Below are positions 37,580 through 55,363 of a stretch of DNA of 64,000 nt, in pieces. This stretch comes from Hydrogenobacter thermophilus TK-6 (GTDB taxonomy: Bacteria > Aquificota > Aquificia > Aquificales > Aquificaceae): assembly GCF_000010785.1 (NCBI RefSeq), contig NC_013799.1:1426001-1490000 (forward strand), given 5' to 3'. The notes beneath the pieces are model-generated. The model searched no databases and was not told the origin of the DNA. It saw only the letters and a program-made list of their open reading frames with translations. Within the stretch, counting starts at the first letter, position 1. Each line of letters starts with the position of its first letter. Made by a program: the position numbers and the translations under genes.

Positions 37580-39763
37580 ATGTGGAGAGTTGTATATACA
37601 GGTCAAAGACCCCATTACGAAAACATAGCTCTGGATAGGATCATGCTTGATTTAAAGGCTGAGGGAAAAATTCCCAACACCATAAGGTTTTTGCAGTTCA
37701 AGCCTGAATGTGTGCTTATAGGCTTTCACCAATCGGTGGAGGAAGAGGTGAGAGTTGATTATACTCAGAGAGAAGGCATACAGGTAGGTAGAAGGATAAC
37801 AGGCGGGGGTGCTATATACTTTGACGAGACGCAGATAGGCTGGGAGGTGATAGCAGACATAAGAGATGTTGATGCTAAAAATTTTGAGGAGCTTACCGCT
37901 ATGATATGCAGAGCTGTAGCAAAAGGTCTCAGAAAGCTGGGAATAAAGGCGGACTTTAGACCAAGAAATGATATAGAGGTAGAGGGGCGGAAGATATCAG
38001 GTACAGGGGGCGTGTTTGAGGGCAATGCCTTTTTGTATCAGGGTACCATACTTATGGACTTTAATGTGGAAAGGATGTTAAAGTCCCTTCAGATACCTGT
38101 TGAAAAACTGACTTCCAAGGGTATAAAGTCTGCGGAGGACAGAGTAGAGTGGGTAAAGAGGGTTTTAGGCTATTTACCACCAAAAGAGGAAGTTTTTGAA
38201 GCTCTGCTCAGAGGCATTTCTGAAGAGCTGGGCATAAACTATCAGTGGGGGAACCTCACTGAGGAGGAGCTTGAGCTTCTTGATAGCAAGAGAGATTACT
38301 ATAAGAGCGACGAATGGATATATCATGTAAAGAGTGCAGTAAAAGACCAGGATACGCTTTTTGGCATACACAGATGCCCCGGTGGTACCTTCAGAGTGTC
38401 GGCAAAGATAGATACCAGAACTAAAGTTTTACAGCAGGTCATTATAAACGGCGACTTCTTTGTAAAGCCTCAGAGGATCATTTACGACCTGGAAGCCTAT
38501 CTAAAGCACACACCCATTGATAATTTGGAAAGCAGAATAAGGGAGTTCTTCAAAGACAGGGATTGGGAAGGGCTAAACCTGAGCGCAGAAGACTTTGTTG
38601 ACGCTATTCTATTCCCCCTTAGGAAAGCGGAGGGCTTACAGCTGGGTATTGAAAAAAAAAGGCTCAATAACATAATAGCCAGCATAGGGGGCGGGCTGAT
38701 AGAGAACATTGAGAAAGCTAAGGTTATGCTCCTTCCTTACTGTGCCAAGCCAAGATGGTGCGATTACAGACATCTTGATGACTGCGGTGAGTGCGGGGGA
38801 TGCACCGTTGGAGATGCTTACAGGCTTGCCTACCAGAAGGGCATGATACCCATAACCATAACCTCCTTTGAGCTTCTTCGGGACACACTCCTATGGTGTG
38901 CGCAAAACGGTTATACATATATAGGACACTGCTGTTATGAGTTTTATGAGAAGCGATACGAAATATTTGCAAAAGCATCTAAGGAAGGTGCAAAAGGTGT
39001 ACTTTTGGACATAGTGGGAACCACATGCTACAGTTTGGGAGTGGAAGAGGAAGAGAGGGCTTATCATGGTGAGTTTACTGTTGAGTTGGACCTTATAAAG
39101 GAAGACATGCAGAGCATTATGTCCGCAAAACCGGATGTAGAAGCTCCAGACAAGAAAGAGGTCAAAAGAGACTTTGACTTTTCTCCTCACTTTTTGGACT
39201 TTAAACCCCCCTATTACAAAAAGCCAAAGGCTGCACCTACCCCTGAGGAGGACATGACAAGAACATCTATGCAAAAGGAAGTTTTTAAGGGAGAAGCTAC
39301 CATAGGAGAGGAGGCTGTCTCTTTCAAGGAGGCGGTAAAACTTCTGGTAAAGTGGATAAAAGAGTCCAAAAACCCCACCCTGGTGATAGGTCCTTTGCTC
39401 TTCTGGGATTGGAAGGAAAAGGAGCTTTTGGAAAAGGGAGAGGTGCTAAGAAGGCTAATAGAAAAGGTGGGAAGGTTTAATGTAAAAGTCATGCCAGATT
39501 ACAGACCCAAGCTCAAAAAGTACGACCCCACCGTAGAGATGGACCCACCCAATCCACACCACGCCGTCCTCTATGGGAAACACGACCTTACCCTTCTGGT
39601 GGGAGTGCATTGCTATAGGACTGACTTTGTGATAAGACTGCTCAAAAAACACACAGACACCAAGGTGGTAGCCCTTTGTGGACTCTATGGCCACCCTACA
39701 GCTGACCTTTCAACCAGCTTCACGGATGCGCAAAAACTTGAGGAAATTCTAAAAATGCTCTAA
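37580..39763 (+). CDS. Lipoate-protein ligase / DUF116 / CdhB-like three-domain fusion
   Basis: This 727-residue protein has three parts. The first (about 1-370) is lipoate ligase: VGRRITGGGAIYFDE at about 69-83, the catalytic-lysine motif RKISGTGG with Lys138, and a C-terminal accessory domain (CPGGTFRVSAKID ... GDFF). Part two (about 383-515) is DUF116, cysteine-rich: PYCAKPRWCDYRH and CGECGGCTVGDAY, then HCCYEF. A linker follows, then a CdhB-like domain (about 559-727: ATIGEEAVSFKEAV, LVIGPLLFWDWKEKELL, CGLYGHPTADLS), known from the epsilon subunit of archaeal acetyl-CoA synthase. AAGGAGG precedes the ATG. Lipoate ligases of sulfur-oxidising Hdr systems are candidates for relatives. No carrier protein is adjacent, so the target is unknown. 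Confidence 0.8.
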   Translation: MWRVVYTGQRPHYENIALDRIMLDLKAEGKIPNTIRFLQFKPECVLIGFHQSVEEEVRVDYTQREGIQVGRRITGGGAIYFDETQIGWEVIADIRDVDAKNFEELTAMICRAVAKGLRKLGIKADFRPRNDIEVEGRKISGTGGVFEGNAFLYQGTILMDFNVERMLKSLQIPVEKLTSKGIKSAEDRVEWVKRVLGYLPPKEEVFEALLRGISEELGINYQWGNLTEEELELLDSKRDYYKSDEWIYHVKSAVKDQDTLFGIHRCPGGTFRVSAKIDTRTKVLQQVIINGDFFVKPQRIIYDLEAYLKHTPIDNLESRIREFFKDRDWEGLNLSAEDFVDAILFPLRKAEGLQLGIEKKRLNNIIASIGGGLIENIEKAKVMLLPYCAKPRWCDYRHLDDCGECGGCTVGDAYRLAYQKGMIPITITSFELLRDTLLWCAQNGYTYIGHCCYEFYEKRYEIFAKASKEGAKGVLLDIVGTTCYSLGVEEEERAYHGEFTVELDLIKEDMQSIMSAKPDVEAPDKKEVKRDFDFSPHFLDFKPPYYKKPKAAPTPEEDMTRTSMQKEVFKGEATIGEEAVSFKEAVKLLVKWIKESKNPTLVIGPLLFWDWKEKELLEKGEVLRRLIEKVGRFNVKVMPDYRPKLKKYDPTVEMDPPNPHHAVLYGKHDLTLLVGVHCYRTDFVIRLLKKHTDTKVVALCGLYGHPTADLSTSFTDAQKLEEILKML

Positions 39764-40604: not shown

Positions 40605-41396
40605 TTACCTCAGCTGCACATTAGCGCACAGCTCAGGTGCCGAGCTATTTGTATTGCGCCACTTCAGGCTGGGGATAAACCCGGCAGGCGCTATTTCCCC
40701 AGCCATAGACCCTACCCCAGGTCGCAGAGTCTCACGCTCCCTTAAGGGAGTTCTCCCCACGTCCCCTGAAACCATTAAAGGCTTCAAGGGAGAGAGACAC
40801 CTGGGAAGCCTCTCAGGGAAGAGTGCAGTTAGCCCCTTGTCCTTCGGGCGCCAACCACACCCCACTACCCTCAGCACTCGCCAGAGATTATACGGAGACC
40901 TTCTTAGGTTCTGCGCAGTGCCTGAGTTCCTTCCATCGGTTGACTCAGACACCGTCCCTGACTCACGCTGAGAGCTTTCTATCAACGGAAGGTAATTTTT
41001 CGGGACTCTCTCAGATAACCCCAATCCTCGTTGAGGAGCATACTTGAGTATTCCTATCACGCTCGTGTATGCAGGGTTTACCTCCTTGATTGCTATCCCG
41101 TATCTTCTGGCAAGGCTAATAATCCTTTCCTTGAGCTTCTTGTAGCTGAAGCTGTGTCTTATCCTCCTTAATTTCCTTCCTGAGTAGTCTCCTTTGTGTC
41201 CTTTGTCCTTTATCTTGAGAGACTTTAGCTCGTTTCTTGTCTTTCCTTCAAGTAGTCTTTTGTATGCAAACCTCATGCAGGAAGACCATCTTCTCATAAG
41301 GTCGTCAAGTATCTTTCTCTCTTCTCCCTTGACCTTAAGCCTTGCCTGAATTGTCGTCTTAGCTGTCTTCATCTCAGCCGCACCTGTAATATCCAT
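40605..41396 (-). mobile_element. Shortened IS200/IS605 TnpB-like gene (internal deletion)
   Basis: This 263-residue frame starts with a TnpB N-terminal region (TTIQARLKVKGEERKILDDLM, SSCMRFAYKRLLEG, about residues 10-90). It then jumps to the C-terminal part near the RuvC-III region (RRYGIAIKEVNPAYTSVIGILKYAPQRGL) and a basic tail ending SSAPELCANVQLR. A full TnpB has about 400 residues; the RuvC-I and II motifs and the zinc ribbon are absent, so it cannot be a nuclease. No TnpA gene is adjacent. It is either a decayed insertion or an RNA-bearing remnant. CTCCCTTAAGGGAG at 40737-40750 is a palindrome near its 3' end. Confidence 0.75.
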
Positions 41397-49964: not shown

Positions 49965-52463
49965 ATGAGCCAAACCCAGAGTGGTGTCATGACAAAGTCT
50001 GAGGCGAAGTTTTGGGAGGTGCTGGAAAATCTCTATGCGGGAGCCGAGCCAGAAGGCAAGAGTGGGTACATAAATCTCATAAAGCAAAAGCGAGAATACT
50101 TTAGAGAGTTTGTAAAGCCAGAGCTTGAAGAGTATGTGCAAGAGAGAACAAAAGACTTCCCACAAGAGTTTAGAGAGGAGCTATACCACAAGCTTTATAC
50201 CTTCTTTGAACCATACTTTTCTGACACCGGCAGTATATTCTTCGTCAAAAGCTACATCTACTACAAGCAGTATGAGAGAGTTTACACAGAGGAAGATGTA
50301 AAGCTCTTCTGGAAGACAAAAGACCTGTACTACCTCAAGTCAGACCTTCTCATAAGGTCCATGGAAGTGAGGTTTGAAGAAGAGGGAATTACCTTCTACT
50401 TTGACGCGAGTCAGTTGGAACACAAAAAGAACAACGAAAAGAAAAAGCTCATCTACAGTTTTGAAAAGATAGACGAAAAAGGCAGGATAGTGCTAAAGGT
50501 AGAATACTCAGAAAAAGGGAGAGAAACCAGAGAAGATGAAATAATCAAAGACATTAAAAAGAAACTCAAGGAAGAAGGCAAAACGCAGTTAGCTAAAGAC
50601 TTCAAGGAAGAGCATCTGGACAAAGCCATAAATACCTTTGAAAAACAGACAAAGGTGGACTACTTTATACACAAAAATCCGGAGCAGTTTTTAAAAGAGC
50701 AGTTTAACCTCTGGCTCTCTCAGTACTTTATGGCACATGAGGAGGTAAACCTGAGTCCTGAAAGAGTAAACCAACTTCTGGCAATAAAGGATGTAGCCTA
50801 CAGAGTGATAGAGGTTATAGCGAGGTTTGAGGAAGAGCTAAAGAGACTGTGGGAAAAACCAAGACTTGTATTTAACTCCAACTATGTGATAAGCCTGGAT
50901 AGGATAGCAAAGAAGGAGGGGGGACTTGAGGTAATAAAGAAGATACTCAGTTATCCCGCTCTGGAGGAGCAGGTAAGGGAGTGGAAAGAGCTGGGAATGG
51001 TAGAAGAGGACTTTAACCCTAAGGACATACTACTTATAGGAACACTAAACCCAAAATGGCAGTTTTTACCCATAGACACCAAATACTTTAAGGACTTAGA
51101 AGAGGAAATTATAAGCCTTTTTGACCTTGACGAGGAGCTGGACGGGCTTCTTATAAAGAGCGAAAACTGGCAGGCTCTTAACAGCATACTTCCGAGGTTT
51201 AAGGAGAAGGTGCAAACCATTTACATAGACCCACCATTTAACAAGGAGCAAGATGCGGACTACTTTTACGAGGTGGATTACAAGGATGCCACATGGGCTA
51301 CTATGCTGGAAAACAGGGTAAGATTGGGAAGGGAGCTACTCAGGGACACAGGGAGTATTTTTGTAAGATGTGATTATAACGGAAACTGGATTGTTAGACC
51401 TTTGATGGATGAGATTTTTGGAAAGGAGAATTTTAGGAATGAGATTATTGTTAATAGAACAAAAAAAATTTTTACAGGTGTTAAAGGATACAATGTAGCA
51501 ACAGATGATTTGTTTTTTTATTCAAAGAGCCAAGGTTTTTGTTTTAATCCTCAATATAAACGGCGTGAAAAAGCACAAAAATGGTTAAATATGCATTCTC
51601 CTGGAGAAAGGAGACCTCCAGAAAGAATTATATTTGGTAGGTTGTTTTATCCTCCGAAAGGAAGACATTGGACATTTACTCAGGAGACTATTAACAAAAT
51701 GATCAAAGAAGGAAGAATAAGAATTAATGAGGAAGTGGAATATATAGATATAAAAGGAAATAAAGTTAAAGGGATGCCTCAGTATTTAACTGGTGAAGAC
51801 GAATTATTAGATTCTAACTGGACTGATATCCCTGGATACTCTCAAAATCAAGGTTTCCCTACCGAAAACTCCGAAATCCTCTTAAAGCGCGTCATAGAAT
51901 CCACTTCCAACGAAGGCGATTTGGTTATGGACTTCTTTTTAGGATCTGGCACAACAACAGCAGTAGCACATAAACTCAAAAGAAAATGGATTGGTGTTGA
52001 GATGGGAGAGCATTTTTACACAGTGGTTTTGCCAAGGATGAAGAAGGTTTTGTTTTACGATAAGTCTGGCATTAGCAAAGAAAAAGATGTTAAGGAAAAG
52101 TACAACGAAAAATCAGCAGGTGGGTTTTTCAAATATTACGAGCTTGAGCAGTTTGAAGACCTGCTAAGAAATGTAGAATACTCTGAGAAATCTGGAAAGG
52201 AGTTTTATGAGGAGTTTCTTAAAAACTTCAAGGACTATAAGTTTTCTCAAGTGGACCCATTTCTCTTTGACAAGAGACTTGCTAAGGCTGTTAGAGTAGA
52301 TGGAGATGATATTACGGTAAACTTTGAAGAACTTTATCCAGACAAAAAGGTGGACATCACGGAAAGCATAGTAAACACGCTTGGCATTAGCTACAAAGAA
52401 GCGAAAAACATAACTAAAGAAAAGTTGATGGAGTTTTACAGGAGGGTTTTACTGTGCCTGTAG
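49965..52463 (+). CDS. mod: Type III restriction-modification methyltransferase Mod
   Basis: Mod methylates adenine in an asymmetric site and gives the Res complex its specificity. The 832-residue protein has an N-terminal helical region (about 1-400). Then come motif IV IYIDPPFNKEQDADYFY (about 418-434) and motif I MDFFLGSGTTTAVAHKL (about 652-668), the order of beta-class N6-adenine enzymes. Between them lies the target-recognition region. DNA from about 51375 to 51860 is clearly AT-richer than the flanks, matching the recognition domain. res overlaps by 10 bases. Confidence 0.92.
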   Translation: MSQTQSGVMTKSEAKFWEVLENLYAGAEPEGKSGYINLIKQKREYFREFVKPELEEYVQERTKDFPQEFREELYHKLYTFFEPYFSDTGSIFFVKSYIYYKQYERVYTEEDVKLFWKTKDLYYLKSDLLIRSMEVRFEEEGITFYFDASQLEHKKNNEKKKLIYSFEKIDEKGRIVLKVEYSEKGRETREDEIIKDIKKKLKEEGKTQLAKDFKEEHLDKAINTFEKQTKVDYFIHKNPEQFLKEQFNLWLSQYFMAHEEVNLSPERVNQLLAIKDVAYRVIEVIARFEEELKRLWEKPRLVFNSNYVISLDRIAKKEGGLEVIKKILSYPALEEQVREWKELGMVEEDFNPKDILLIGTLNPKWQFLPIDTKYFKDLEEEIISLFDLDEELDGLLIKSENWQALNSILPRFKEKVQTIYIDPPFNKEQDADYFYEVDYKDATWATMLENRVRLGRELLRDTGSIFVRCDYNGNWIVRPLMDEIFGKENFRNEIIVNRTKKIFTGVKGYNVATDDLFFYSKSQGFCFNPQYKRREKAQKWLNMHSPGERRPPERIIFGRLFYPPKGRHWTFTQETINKMIKEGRIRINEEVEYIDIKGNKVKGMPQYLTGEDELLDSNWTDIPGYSQNQGFPTENSEILLKRVIESTSNEGDLVMDFFLGSGTTTAVAHKLKRKWIGVEMGEHFYTVVLPRMKKVLFYDKSGISKEKDVKEKYNEKSAGGFFKYYELEQFEDLLRNVEYSEKSGKEFYEEFLKNFKDYKFSQVDPFLFDKRLAKAVRVDGDDITVNFEELYPDKKVDITESIVNTLGISYKEAKNITKEKLMEFYRRVLLCL

Positions 52464-55363
52464 CCCAAAACGAGCAGGTAGTTATCAAGCCTGTCTTACT
52501 TGACTATGTAGAGGGTCTGTCAGAGGGGTGGGGTATTAAAGTAAGCGAGGACTTTTCTGAGGAGAAAAAGCTTTTTGCTTATCAGGTACAGGCTCTTGAG
52601 AACGCTCTTAAGGCTCTTTACAGTTTTTACGAAAAATACAAAGGAGACAAAGAGGAGTTTGCGAGGATATACACAGAGTATTACGAGCTTCTCTCTCCAA
52701 AGGTTAAAAAGCAAGAACTCCTTGGCTTACTTTCTGAGTTTTACCAGCTTGACGAAAATACTCTGCCGTTTAAAGAGCTTTGCAACCGCATGTCCTTTTG
52801 GATGGCTACAGGCTCTGGTAAGACTCTGGTTATAGTCAAGCTAATAGACCTTCTTTTTGACTTGCAGAAGATGCAATTAATTCCACCAAAACCCGTGCTT
52901 TTTTTAACCGCAAGGCAAGACTTAGTGGATGCTTTTCGCAGGTATCTTGAAGAATTCAACAAAAGCAACCCAGGAAAGCAAATATCTCCTGTAAACCTCA
53001 AAGACTACCAAAAATCGCAGAAAAGTTTATTTAGAGAGGAAGCCAAAGTCTTTTTCTACAGGATGGACCTTATATCCGACGAAAAAGGAAAGGAGACCTT
53101 AGATTTTAGAACCTTCTTAGACAGAGACAGAGAAGGAAACCTGTTAGGAAACTGGTATGTTATCCTGGATGAGGCTCACAAAGGGGATAAGGAGGAGAGC
53201 AAAAGACAGTTTTTGGCAAGTGTGCTTTCCAAAGATGGGTTTTTGTTTAACTTCTCCGCTACCTTCACAGACCCTATAGATATAGCTACAACGGTTTATA
53301 ACCTAAACCTTTCAGAGTTTATAAACAAAGGCTACGGAAAGCAGATTTACCTTTCTTACTCTGAAGTGGAGGGTTTTGAGAAGAAAGAAGAAGAAAGAGA
53401 TTTTTCCAGAGAGGAAAAGAAGAAGGTAATCCTTAAAACTCTTATCCTGCTTGCAGGACTTAAAAAAGCCAAGAGGAAACTTCCAGACCTTTATCACAAT
53501 CCCTTGACTATATACCTTGTCAATTCCGTAAATGTTGAAGAGTCCGACCTTAAGCTTCTATTTGAAGAACTCCTAAACTTTGCCCGCTTCATAGAAAGAG
53601 GTCTTTATGAAAAGGCAAAGGAAGAGCTCATTAATGAGTTTGGAAGCTCTTTTTACATTCTGGGAGATGGAAAGCTTGAATTTATGAAAGAGATTGTCAG
53701 AGATGTAGAGGTACAGGATATTTACAGGGAAGTTTATAACGCAAGCTCGGGAGGGACTATTGAGTATCAGTATTATAAGGAAAACACCCAGGAGGTTGCC
53801 CTAAAGCACACTGGTGCAAATGTACCTTTTGCCCTGATAAAGATAGGCTCAATAGAAAAGATAAAGAAAAACCTTCTGTGGGAGTATCAGGAGACAGTCC
53901 TCTACGAAGACCCAAAGTACTTTGAAAGACTCAATGAGCCTGACAGTCCTGTAAACCTTCTTATCGGTTCAAGAGCTTTTTACGAAGGCTGGGATAGTCC
54001 AAGACCCAATCTCATAGTGTTTATAAATCTTGGAACTCAGGCTGATGCAAAGAAATTTGTCCTTCAGGCTACAGGCAGAGGAGTGAGGATAGAGCCAGTC
54101 AAAAACCAGAGGCAAAGGCTAAAGTGGGTTTCTGAAAACCTTTCGGAGCTAAGAGACAAGATAGACAAACCTGAAGTCAAGGCTCTGGAAACTCTCTTTG
54201 TTTTTGCCACAAGCAGGAAGGCGGTGGAAACCATACTAAGCGAGCTGACCAAACTCAAAGAAGTTGCTGATTATAGTCAGGTGGAGCTTTACAAAAATCC
54301 CGAAGTGGAAAAACACCTTTTACTCATTCCCAAGTATAAAATAAAAGGCAAGAGCGTTTTTGAACTTGAGAGTCCTCCTAAGTTTAAACTAAGCGATGAA
54401 AATTACAAGCTTTTAAAGTTGTATCTTGACCTTATGCCCAAAGAGAGGTTTACGCTTGAGAGAAACTCAGACCTTGAAAAACTCAGAAAGATTGTTCAAA
54501 ACAGTGGAAAATACTTGTTTATTGATGATGAATACCACTACAGGAACTTTGAAAAGCTTTTAAAGGCTCTTCTTAACTACTCAAAGGCTCAGGTGCAGGA
54601 TATTGACGAAAGCGAACCCTTTATACCTCTTCCAGATGACGCTATAGTGCATTTTAAGGAGATTATGGTTAAGAAGGAACTGGTGGAAAAGTTTAAAAGG
54701 TTAGCGGAGGAGGTTTTTAACGCTAAGAAAATGAGCGAAGAGGAAGAGATCAGTAAAAAGTTAAAGGGTGTAGATAAGGAACTTGCAGAAGAGTTTAAAA
54801 GGTTAGCGGAGAAAGCCTTTGAGACTGAGAGAATAAAAGAAATTGATGGCATTACCCTTGAGAAGATCCTCAGTCATTACTACATACCCATGGTTTACAC
54901 TAAGAATGCTCAGGACCTTGTAAAGCATGTTATAAGCGTAGAGAGCGAAGTGGACTTTATTCAAGCTCTAAAGGGAAAGATAGATAAGCTTGATAAAATT
55001 TGTGAGCATTGGTTTTTTAGCAAGCTGGATGAGCAAAAGGATAAAATATACATACCTTACATGGACAAAGAAGGAAGGCAAGCCAGATTTATACCAGACT
55101 TTATCTTTTGGCTCAAGCTAAAGAAAAACAAGTATGTAATCTACTTTATAGACCCTAAGGGCAGTGCACACACGGACTACGAGAGAAAGGTGGATGGCTA
55201 CGAGAGGATATTTGTAGAAAATGGGAAACCAAAGGAGTTTGAGCATAAAGGCTTGAAGGTGGAGGTAAGGCTAAAGCTCTTTAATAAAGACTATAGCGGA
55301 GGAGAAAAGTATAAAGATTACTGGGTAAATTCCCAAGCTCTTTTTGAGGATTTGGTCGTATAA
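52454..55363 (+). CDS. res: Type III restriction endonuclease subunit Res
   Basis: Res is a helicase-nuclease that cleaves DNA after ATP-dependent translocation with Mod. The 969-residue protein has Walker A FWMATGSGKTLVIV (about residue 115), DEAH box VILDEAHKG (about 236), FNFSATFTD and helicase motif VI VLQATGRGVRIEP. The nuclease is C-terminal, with PD-(D/E)xK residues in FIPDFIFWLK and YFIDPKGSAH. The start is GTG, with GGAGG 8 bases upstream. A 34-codon duplication lies at about 54680-54830. The pair with mod looks intact. Confidence 0.93.
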   Translation: MPVAQNEQVVIKPVLLDYVEGLSEGWGIKVSEDFSEEKKLFAYQVQALENALKALYSFYEKYKGDKEEFARIYTEYYELLSPKVKKQELLGLLSEFYQLDENTLPFKELCNRMSFWMATGSGKTLVIVKLIDLLFDLQKMQLIPPKPVLFLTARQDLVDAFRRYLEEFNKSNPGKQISPVNLKDYQKSQKSLFREEAKVFFYRMDLISDEKGKETLDFRTFLDRDREGNLLGNWYVILDEAHKGDKEESKRQFLASVLSKDGFLFNFSATFTDPIDIATTVYNLNLSEFINKGYGKQIYLSYSEVEGFEKKEEERDFSREEKKKVILKTLILLAGLKKAKRKLPDLYHNPLTIYLVNSVNVEESDLKLLFEELLNFARFIERGLYEKAKEELINEFGSSFYILGDGKLEFMKEIVRDVEVQDIYREVYNASSGGTIEYQYYKENTQEVALKHTGANVPFALIKIGSIEKIKKNLLWEYQETVLYEDPKYFERLNEPDSPVNLLIGSRAFYEGWDSPRPNLIVFINLGTQADAKKFVLQATGRGVRIEPVKNQRQRLKWVSENLSELRDKIDKPEVKALETLFVFATSRKAVETILSELTKLKEVADYSQVELYKNPEVEKHLLLIPKYKIKGKSVFELESPPKFKLSDENYKLLKLYLDLMPKERFTLERNSDLEKLRKIVQNSGKYLFIDDEYHYRNFEKLLKALLNYSKAQVQDIDESEPFIPLPDDAIVHFKEIMVKKELVEKFKRLAEEVFNAKKMSEEEEISKKLKGVDKELAEEFKRLAEKAFETERIKEIDGITLEKILSHYYIPMVYTKNAQDLVKHVISVESEVDFIQALKGKIDKLDKICEHWFFSKLDEQKDKIYIPYMDKEGRQARFIPDFIFWLKLKKNKYVIYFIDPKGSAHTDYERKVDGYERIFVENGKPKEFEHKGLKVEVRLKLFNKDYSGGEKYKDYWVNSQALFEDLVV

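Follow-up and report, generated by a model that had tools for sequence, protein, structure and literature searches.

A single gene of Hydrogenobacter thermophilus TK-6 probably encodes two proteins by RNA polymerase slippage, and is likely to be this organism's counterpart of sLpl(AB), the lipoate:protein ligase of the LipS1/LipS2 pathway in sulfur oxidizers (PMC6067878, PMC10332631). The gene lies in the window, a 64-kb stretch (C1:1426001-1490000) of a genome that consists of one 1.74-Mb contig, and joins a ligase, a DUF116 module, and a CdhB-like module in one frame, with a run of nine adenines (A9) at the joint between the ligase and DUF116 (Table 1). From sequence comparisons, we document this architecture, the conservation of A9, the stops that immediately follow it in the alternative frames, selection across the joint in out-of-frame relatives, and the linkage to LipS1/LipS2; that RNA polymerase rather than the ribosome would slip on the run is what we infer from them. 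The conserved A9 at the Lpl/DUF116 joint is a new observation. Our literature search found no paper joining “lipoate” and “transcriptional slippage,” and the papers on frame transitions and slippage that we checked mention neither lipoate nor Aquifex.

Three Modules in One Frame and a Conserved Run of Nine Adenines

The frame is unbroken from an ATG start, just before which stands AAGGAGG. The first-pass annotation had described a one-frame fusion of a lipoate ligase, DUF116, and a CdhB-like domain, and the ORF, the Pfam matches, and the relatives all bear this out. The relatives of this genome are Hydrogenobacter, Thermocrinis, and Aquifex, all members of the hot-spring family Aquificaceae; most relatives compared are MAGs. 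The identical three-module order recurs in most Aquificaceae genomes searched, so the fusion is not an assembly artefact. What that annotation missed is the A9 run, and its “one fused protein” is probably only half of the output.

Around the joint the sequence reads GGT ATT GAA AAA AAA AGG CTC AAT AAC, and this A9 is the sole A/T run of at least nine in the window. The 175 ORFs of the genome that were surveyed (176 kb) hold one A run of that length and no T run, compared to 3.9 and 4.7 expected from codon shuffling of the same ORFs, and 31 of the 33 A/T runs of at least nine in 533 kb of Aquificaceae loci are located at the Lpl/DUF116 joint. All 38 distinct in-frame Aquificaceae genes carry A9 or (once) A10 at the joint, while shuffling synonymous codons within the codon use of each gene predicts such a run in 2.5 of the 38. 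Lysine is encoded inside the run by 89 AAA and no AAG codons, as against 716 AAA and 1425 AAG elsewhere in the genes. The run is kept while both its codon phase and the residues that it encodes vary (EKKR, EKKS, EKKT, EKKN, GKKN, KKKE, and KKKL), which indicates that the nucleotides are conserved, not the residues. With one A added or lost, a stop follows 2-24 nt past the run in both other frames, and the two ligases thus predicted for the window gene (363 and 364 residues) have the length of a standalone sLpl(AB).

Table 1. Features of the fusion gene (positions in the window)
Feature	Position	Strand	Basis
Whole gene, Lpl(AB)-DUF116-CdhB-like, 727 aa	37580..39763	+	open ORF; Pfam/NCBIfam domains; architecture common in Aquificaceae
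sLpl(AB)-type lipoate:protein ligase, residues 1-345	37580..38614	+	Pfam/NCBIfam, identity, tree, AF2
DUF116 module, ~residues 355-520	38642..39139	+	Pfam match; 31-sequence alignment; AF2 fold
A9 run, codons 358-361 (EKKR), predicted transcriptional-slippage site	38652-38660	+	conservation, shuffling, rarity elsewhere
TAA stop after one added A; 363-aa product ..GIEKKKAQ	38668..38670	+	predicted
TAA stop after one lost A; 364-aa product ..GIEKKGSIT	38673..38675	+	predicted
CdhB-like module, residues 569-727, POR/OGOR-delta type	39284..39760	+	PF02552 E=1e-37; genome homologs

Relatives with an Interrupted Long Frame

Seven loci (L030, L031, L033, L035, L036, L037, and L038) are one A short of the long frame and have DUF116-CdhB intact; the run is A9 in six of them and A8 in one. 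L140 is out of frame as well. On a tree of 44 rows, with 37 copies in frame and seven out of frame, the frame state changed at least six times, five of these changes being forced by well-supported branches. Most of the out-of-frame copies come from draft MAGs.

L035 and L038, both out of frame, form a supported clade (99/97). The 66 nt from the run to the first possible start codon differ between them at seven positions, all synonymous and none nonsynonymous, and in the downstream ORF dN is 0.11 and dS is saturated. As this stretch has no start codon and only synonymous differences, the long frame must be translated across the joint in these two genomes. In a Thermocrinis MAG (L032, 10001-12000), an A9 run is found inside the ligase part (~codon 230), where the copy is out of frame; it lacks the first DUF116 cysteines and is probably decaying or mis-assembled.

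Proposed Slippage by RNA Polymerase and Its Alternatives

We propose that RNA polymerase slips on the A9 run. Transcripts that are unslipped, or changed by three, would be translated into the 727-aa Lpl-DUF116-CdhB protein, while those with one A more or less would run into the early stop and yield a free ligase of ~363 residues. The free ligase would load octanoate or lipoate onto GcvH-like carriers (LbpA), and the long form would present a ligase-like, carrier-binding part beside the Cys-rich DUF116, which would aid the insertion of two sulfurs by LipS1/LipS2. As a partner mounted on a carrier-binding ligase domain, DUF116 could renew clusters or give electrons, and the CdhB-like module, of the POR/OGOR delta kind, is probably a docking site for a partner or a source of low-potential electrons and may bind a ferredoxin or an oxidoreductase.

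Thermus dnaX is a known case of slippage on nine A's that yields two products, a stop being present in each of the remaining frames (PMC5009743, PMC1088944). As in Thermus thermophilus dnaX, the nine A's here are on the sense strand, the full-length product is in frame, and stops lie close behind in both other frames; the two cases differ in that a cofactor-assembly gene is involved here and a clamp loader there, that the relatives here differ in frame, and that slippage here is predicted. This dnaX-like layout, together with the lack of downstream RNA structure and the fixed length of nine, favours RNA polymerase over the ribosome. Ribosomal -1 frameshifting on A_AAA_AAN, the E. coli dnaX way, could also yield two products, as the slippery heptamer is contained in A9 in every codon phase and a shift would bring the out-of-frame copies back into the long frame. 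However, no stable fold was found in the RNA downstream (z-scores from -0.7 to 2.2), the run stays at nine A's where seven would be enough for a ribosome, and its codon phase varies, all of which makes this route unlikely. Initiation inside the gene, at Met386 (VMLLPYC), would produce DUF116-CdhB in the out-of-frame copies without any slippage; Met386 is conserved, and reinitiation past the Lpl stop is conceivable, but the long frame is still under selection over the 21-22 codons that separate the run from Met386, and six of the seven copies checked lack a standard start codon there; we hold this explanation to be very improbable.

Equally improbable is a phase-variation switch, in which replication slippage would toggle DUF116-CdhB within a population. 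In-frame and out-of-frame genomes do coexist, with six independent changes between them, but the run length is almost fixed at nine, one clade has stayed out of frame while its long frame is under purifying selection, and the protein is cytoplasmic and no surface antigen. The retention of A9 in all but one of the listed out-of-frame loci fits selection for slippage better than a switch based on length. The gene might also encode a single three-module enzyme, with an incidental A9 and with out-of-frame copies that are assembly errors or decaying genes. This would agree with the predominance of in-frame copies on the tree, the proneness of homopolymers to error, and the draft state of most out-of-frame MAGs, and it is very unlikely in view of the excess of A9/A10 over the shuffled expectation, the near absence of such runs elsewhere, and the two-genome out-of-frame clade with its purely synonymous differences across the joint.

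The Ligase Module and Its Link to LipS1/LipS2

Judged by its motifs, identity, and tree position, the ligase module belongs to the sLpl(AB) type that serves the LipS1/LipS2 pathway of lipoate assembly. Pfam LplA-B_cat matches residues 12-213 (E=5e-44), Lip_prot_lig_C weakly matches 264-343, and NCBIfam LplB matches 262-343 (E=3e-12). The catalytic motifs RRxTGGG and GRKISGTGG are intact, including the RRITGGG and Lys138 (within GRKISGTGG) already pointed out in the first-pass annotation, and the accessory LplB is present. The module is 42-48% identical to the sLpl(AB) of Proteobacteria, whose gene sits between lipS1 and lipS2 in sHdr/LbpA operons, and its AF2 model resembles LplA structures, with a TM of 0.84 by target length. 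In a ligase tree, it groups with sLpl(AB) and apart from the genome's second LplA (L002), which is the sole other ligase and only 29% identical to it. Thus, the window gene resembles sLpl(AB) in its catalytic motifs, LplB-like C-terminus, tree position, and the length of its predicted short product, but adds DUF116 and CdhB-like modules behind the predicted slippage site and lies outside the sHdr operon of its own genome.

That sHdr cluster is ordered tusA-dsrE-dsrE-hdrC1B1A-hyp-hdrC2B2-lbpA1-trx-dsrE-lbpA2-lipS1-rdgB-lipS2 (genes named from sequence, with LipS1, LipS2, and the GcvH-like proteins checked against NCBIfam, LipS2 falling below the cut-off). It contains no ligase gene, which makes the fusion the foremost candidate for the sLpl(AB) that the cluster lacks. 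The fusion shares the genome with lipS1, lipS2, and lbpA and co-occurs strongly with them across genomes, yet stands here outside their operon. An RdgB/HAM1-like gene (L084, 6951-7565) is found between the organism's own lipS1 and lipS2, where Proteobacteria have sLpl(AB) and lipT. Five GcvH-like proteins are encoded in the genome (G000:C1 858204, 1171784, 1398404, 1705595, and 1706707), one of them adjoining gcvP (1398895) and two within the sHdr cluster.

Among Aquificota genomes with a completeness of 90% or more and a contamination of 5% or less, every one of the 38 that have LipS2 carries the fusion, in frame or out of frame, a strong association that is not richly replicated, as the losses are few and all inside one family. 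The fusion occurs in 39 of these good-quality genomes, only one of which (G042) has no LipS2 match. Genus g10 of the Aquificaceae has sHdr and both LbpA, with LipS2 and the fusion both absent. Of two genomes below 90% completeness, G006 has neither LipS2 nor sHdrB1 nor the fusion, while G055 has only sHdrB1 of the three. The fit with sHdrB1 is worse: among good-quality genomes, sHdr occurs without the fusion in G058 and G060, and the fusion without sHdr in G002, G013, and G041. Given these mismatches and the pattern in genus g10, we rejected a tie to sHdr itself; the fusion tracks LipS2 better than sHdr among Aquificota. The earlier suggestion of lipoylation of dedicated sHdr-type carriers is upheld, as the nearest standalone ligases lie between lipS1 and lipS2 in proteobacterial sHdr/LbpA clusters, with the refinement that the tie is to LipS1/LipS2 and not to sHdr itself. 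The check for co-occurrence with lipoate or CO dehydrogenase systems that had been proposed gives a good fit for LipS2 and a poorer one for sHdr, and CdhC is absent from the organism's own genome. In the genus g10 loci (L138 and L139), an sHdr/LbpA1/LbpA2 cluster stands without LipS2, and lipoylation is presumably carried out by LipA and another ligase.

The DUF116 Module

For the C-terminal part, the domain searches returned the modules that had been read from the sequence earlier, DUF116 from residue 355 and CO_dh/CdhB over 569-727. The DUF116 match (355-427, E=5e-5) scores 23.4 bits, slightly under the 25-bit cut-off, and relatives that are 38-42% identical score 38-44 bits. Eight cysteines are invariant in a 31-sequence alignment (388, 394, 402, 405, 408, 451, 452, and 483; C-x5-C-x7-C-x2-C-x2-C-x42-CC-x30-C in the window), and the module does look like the metal or redox module that it was taken for. 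For the module, AF2 predicts an alpha/beta fold with moderate confidence (pLDDT 75); Foldseek gave no match to this model at E <0.001, and a profile search of PDB sequences gave chance matches only. For DUF116 (arCOG02078/COG1852/PF01976), metal binding, a flavodoxin-like fold, and electron transfer have been proposed (PMC5898192). The window protein contains a homologous Cys-rich alpha/beta module, but has it joined to a ligase, whereas in arCOG02078 it is joined to two N-terminal transmembrane helices. No paper joining “lipoate-protein ligase” and “DUF116” was found in our literature search.

Three MAGs encode Lpl-DUF116 proteins without CdhB: one of Thermoplasmatales, in an operon Lpl-DUF116 / lipT / lipS1 / lipS2; one of Caldisericia, where lipT comes next; and one of Hydrothermarchaeota. 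Thioalkalivibrio has a diverged Lpl-DUF116 gene divergently beside lipS1, in addition to a normal sLpl(AB). A profile of this DUF116 type was run on 34 genomes selected for their sLpl-type ligase; 16 gave a match (13 of them among the Proteobacteria-locus genomes), and 18, several of which are drafts, gave none. As about half of these genomes are without it, this DUF116 is not strictly needed for LipS1/LipS2.

Many sulfur-oxidising Proteobacteria have separate genes for sLpl(AB) and a diverged Lpl-DUF116. In Hydrogenobaculum, the ligase module of the fusion has decayed (RRITGGG changed to SRLSGPA, GRKISGTGG lost) and the A run is gone, while DUF116 and CdhB are ~75% and ~70% identical and a separate intact sLpl is present. 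In the ligase tree, where some branches are long and placement is therefore provisional, the Hydrogenobaculum pair falls with Aquificaceae, the proteobacterial sLpl(AB)/Lpl-DUF116 pair groups together elsewhere, and the archaeal and Caldisericia Lpl-DUF116 fall outside both pairs. The simplest reading would be two separate duplications, each of which left an active ligase apart from a copy that carries DUF116. If both forms are needed, this would account for slippage in the single-gene Aquificaceae, and the one-gene and two-gene solutions in different lineages permit a clean comparison.

LipS1/LipS2 spend their auxiliary [4Fe-4S] clusters as the sulfur source, and only 1 to 1.5 turnovers were obtained with a ferredoxin system (PMC9585515). 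Expression of lipS1-slpl-lipT-lipS2 of Thioalkalivibrio in E. coli gave mono-thiolated LbpA, with an inefficient second step (PMC10332631). DUF116 would seem to assist sulfur insertion by LipS1/LipS2, likely carrying an Fe-S cluster, sulfur, or electrons. More speculatively, LipS1/LipS2 might have in DUF116 a dedicated factor for Fe-S, sulfur, or electrons, delivered by the carrier-binding Lpl domain, with Aquificaceae making both forms from one gene by slippage; a missing DUF116 could then explain the mono-thiolated stop in E. coli (PMC10332631). This suggests DUF116 as a candidate for the missing factor in the second sulfur insertion, which is poor in a foreign host. The literature searched holds almost nothing on this domain, which a single paper names, and its placement in the LipS1/LipS2 pathway would give it a function. 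If slippage does occur at A9, a cofactor-assembly gene joins the short list of genes with purposeful transcriptional slippage.

The CdhB-Like Module

Within the genome, the CdhB-like module has only two homologs, the delta subunits of POR and FOR (31% identity), encoded beside alpha-subunit genes. In the five-subunit POR/OGOR of Aquificaceae, delta resembles the epsilon subunit of CODH/ACS, and its role is unknown (PMC10052474). The module shares with these delta subunits the Pfam family and, by eye, the motifs PDYRPK..DP..E and VG.HC, but it is located at the C-terminus of a ligase fusion rather than in a separate gene beside alpha. A role in C1 chemistry had been considered in the first-pass annotation, and the Pfam CO_dh match would fit a fusion that serves CO dehydrogenase/acetyl-CoA synthase or another one-carbon enzyme. 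This is almost certainly not the case, as a search of the genome for CdhC (acetyl-CoA synthase) found none, the closest kin are delta subunits of POR/FOR or 2-oxoglutarate:ferredoxin oxidoreductase, and the presence of the fusion follows LipS2; the score against TIGR00315, the CdhB equivalog, is 23.4 bits compared to a cut-off of 101.2.

The idea that the CdhB-like module substitutes for LipT as an electron donor was rejected, because most fusion genomes also carry LipT (~33-42% identical to archaeal LipT; at C1:1592266 in the window genome). Four genomes with the fusion (G040, G041, G056, and G062) have only weak reductase-family matches for LipT.

Neighbouring Genes

A search of a plasmid collection returned ligase-domain matches only, with no record spanning most of the query. 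Beside the fusion, an ORF at 40605-41396 (-) has no Pfam match at E 1e-5; by eye, its N-terminal half resembles an IS605-type TnpB (YTSVIG..KYAPQ), and it is apparently degenerate. Further downstream, positions 49965-55363 of the window hold a probable type III restriction-modification pair, consisting of an N6/N4 DNA methylase (832 aa) and a ResIII helicase subunit (969 aa).
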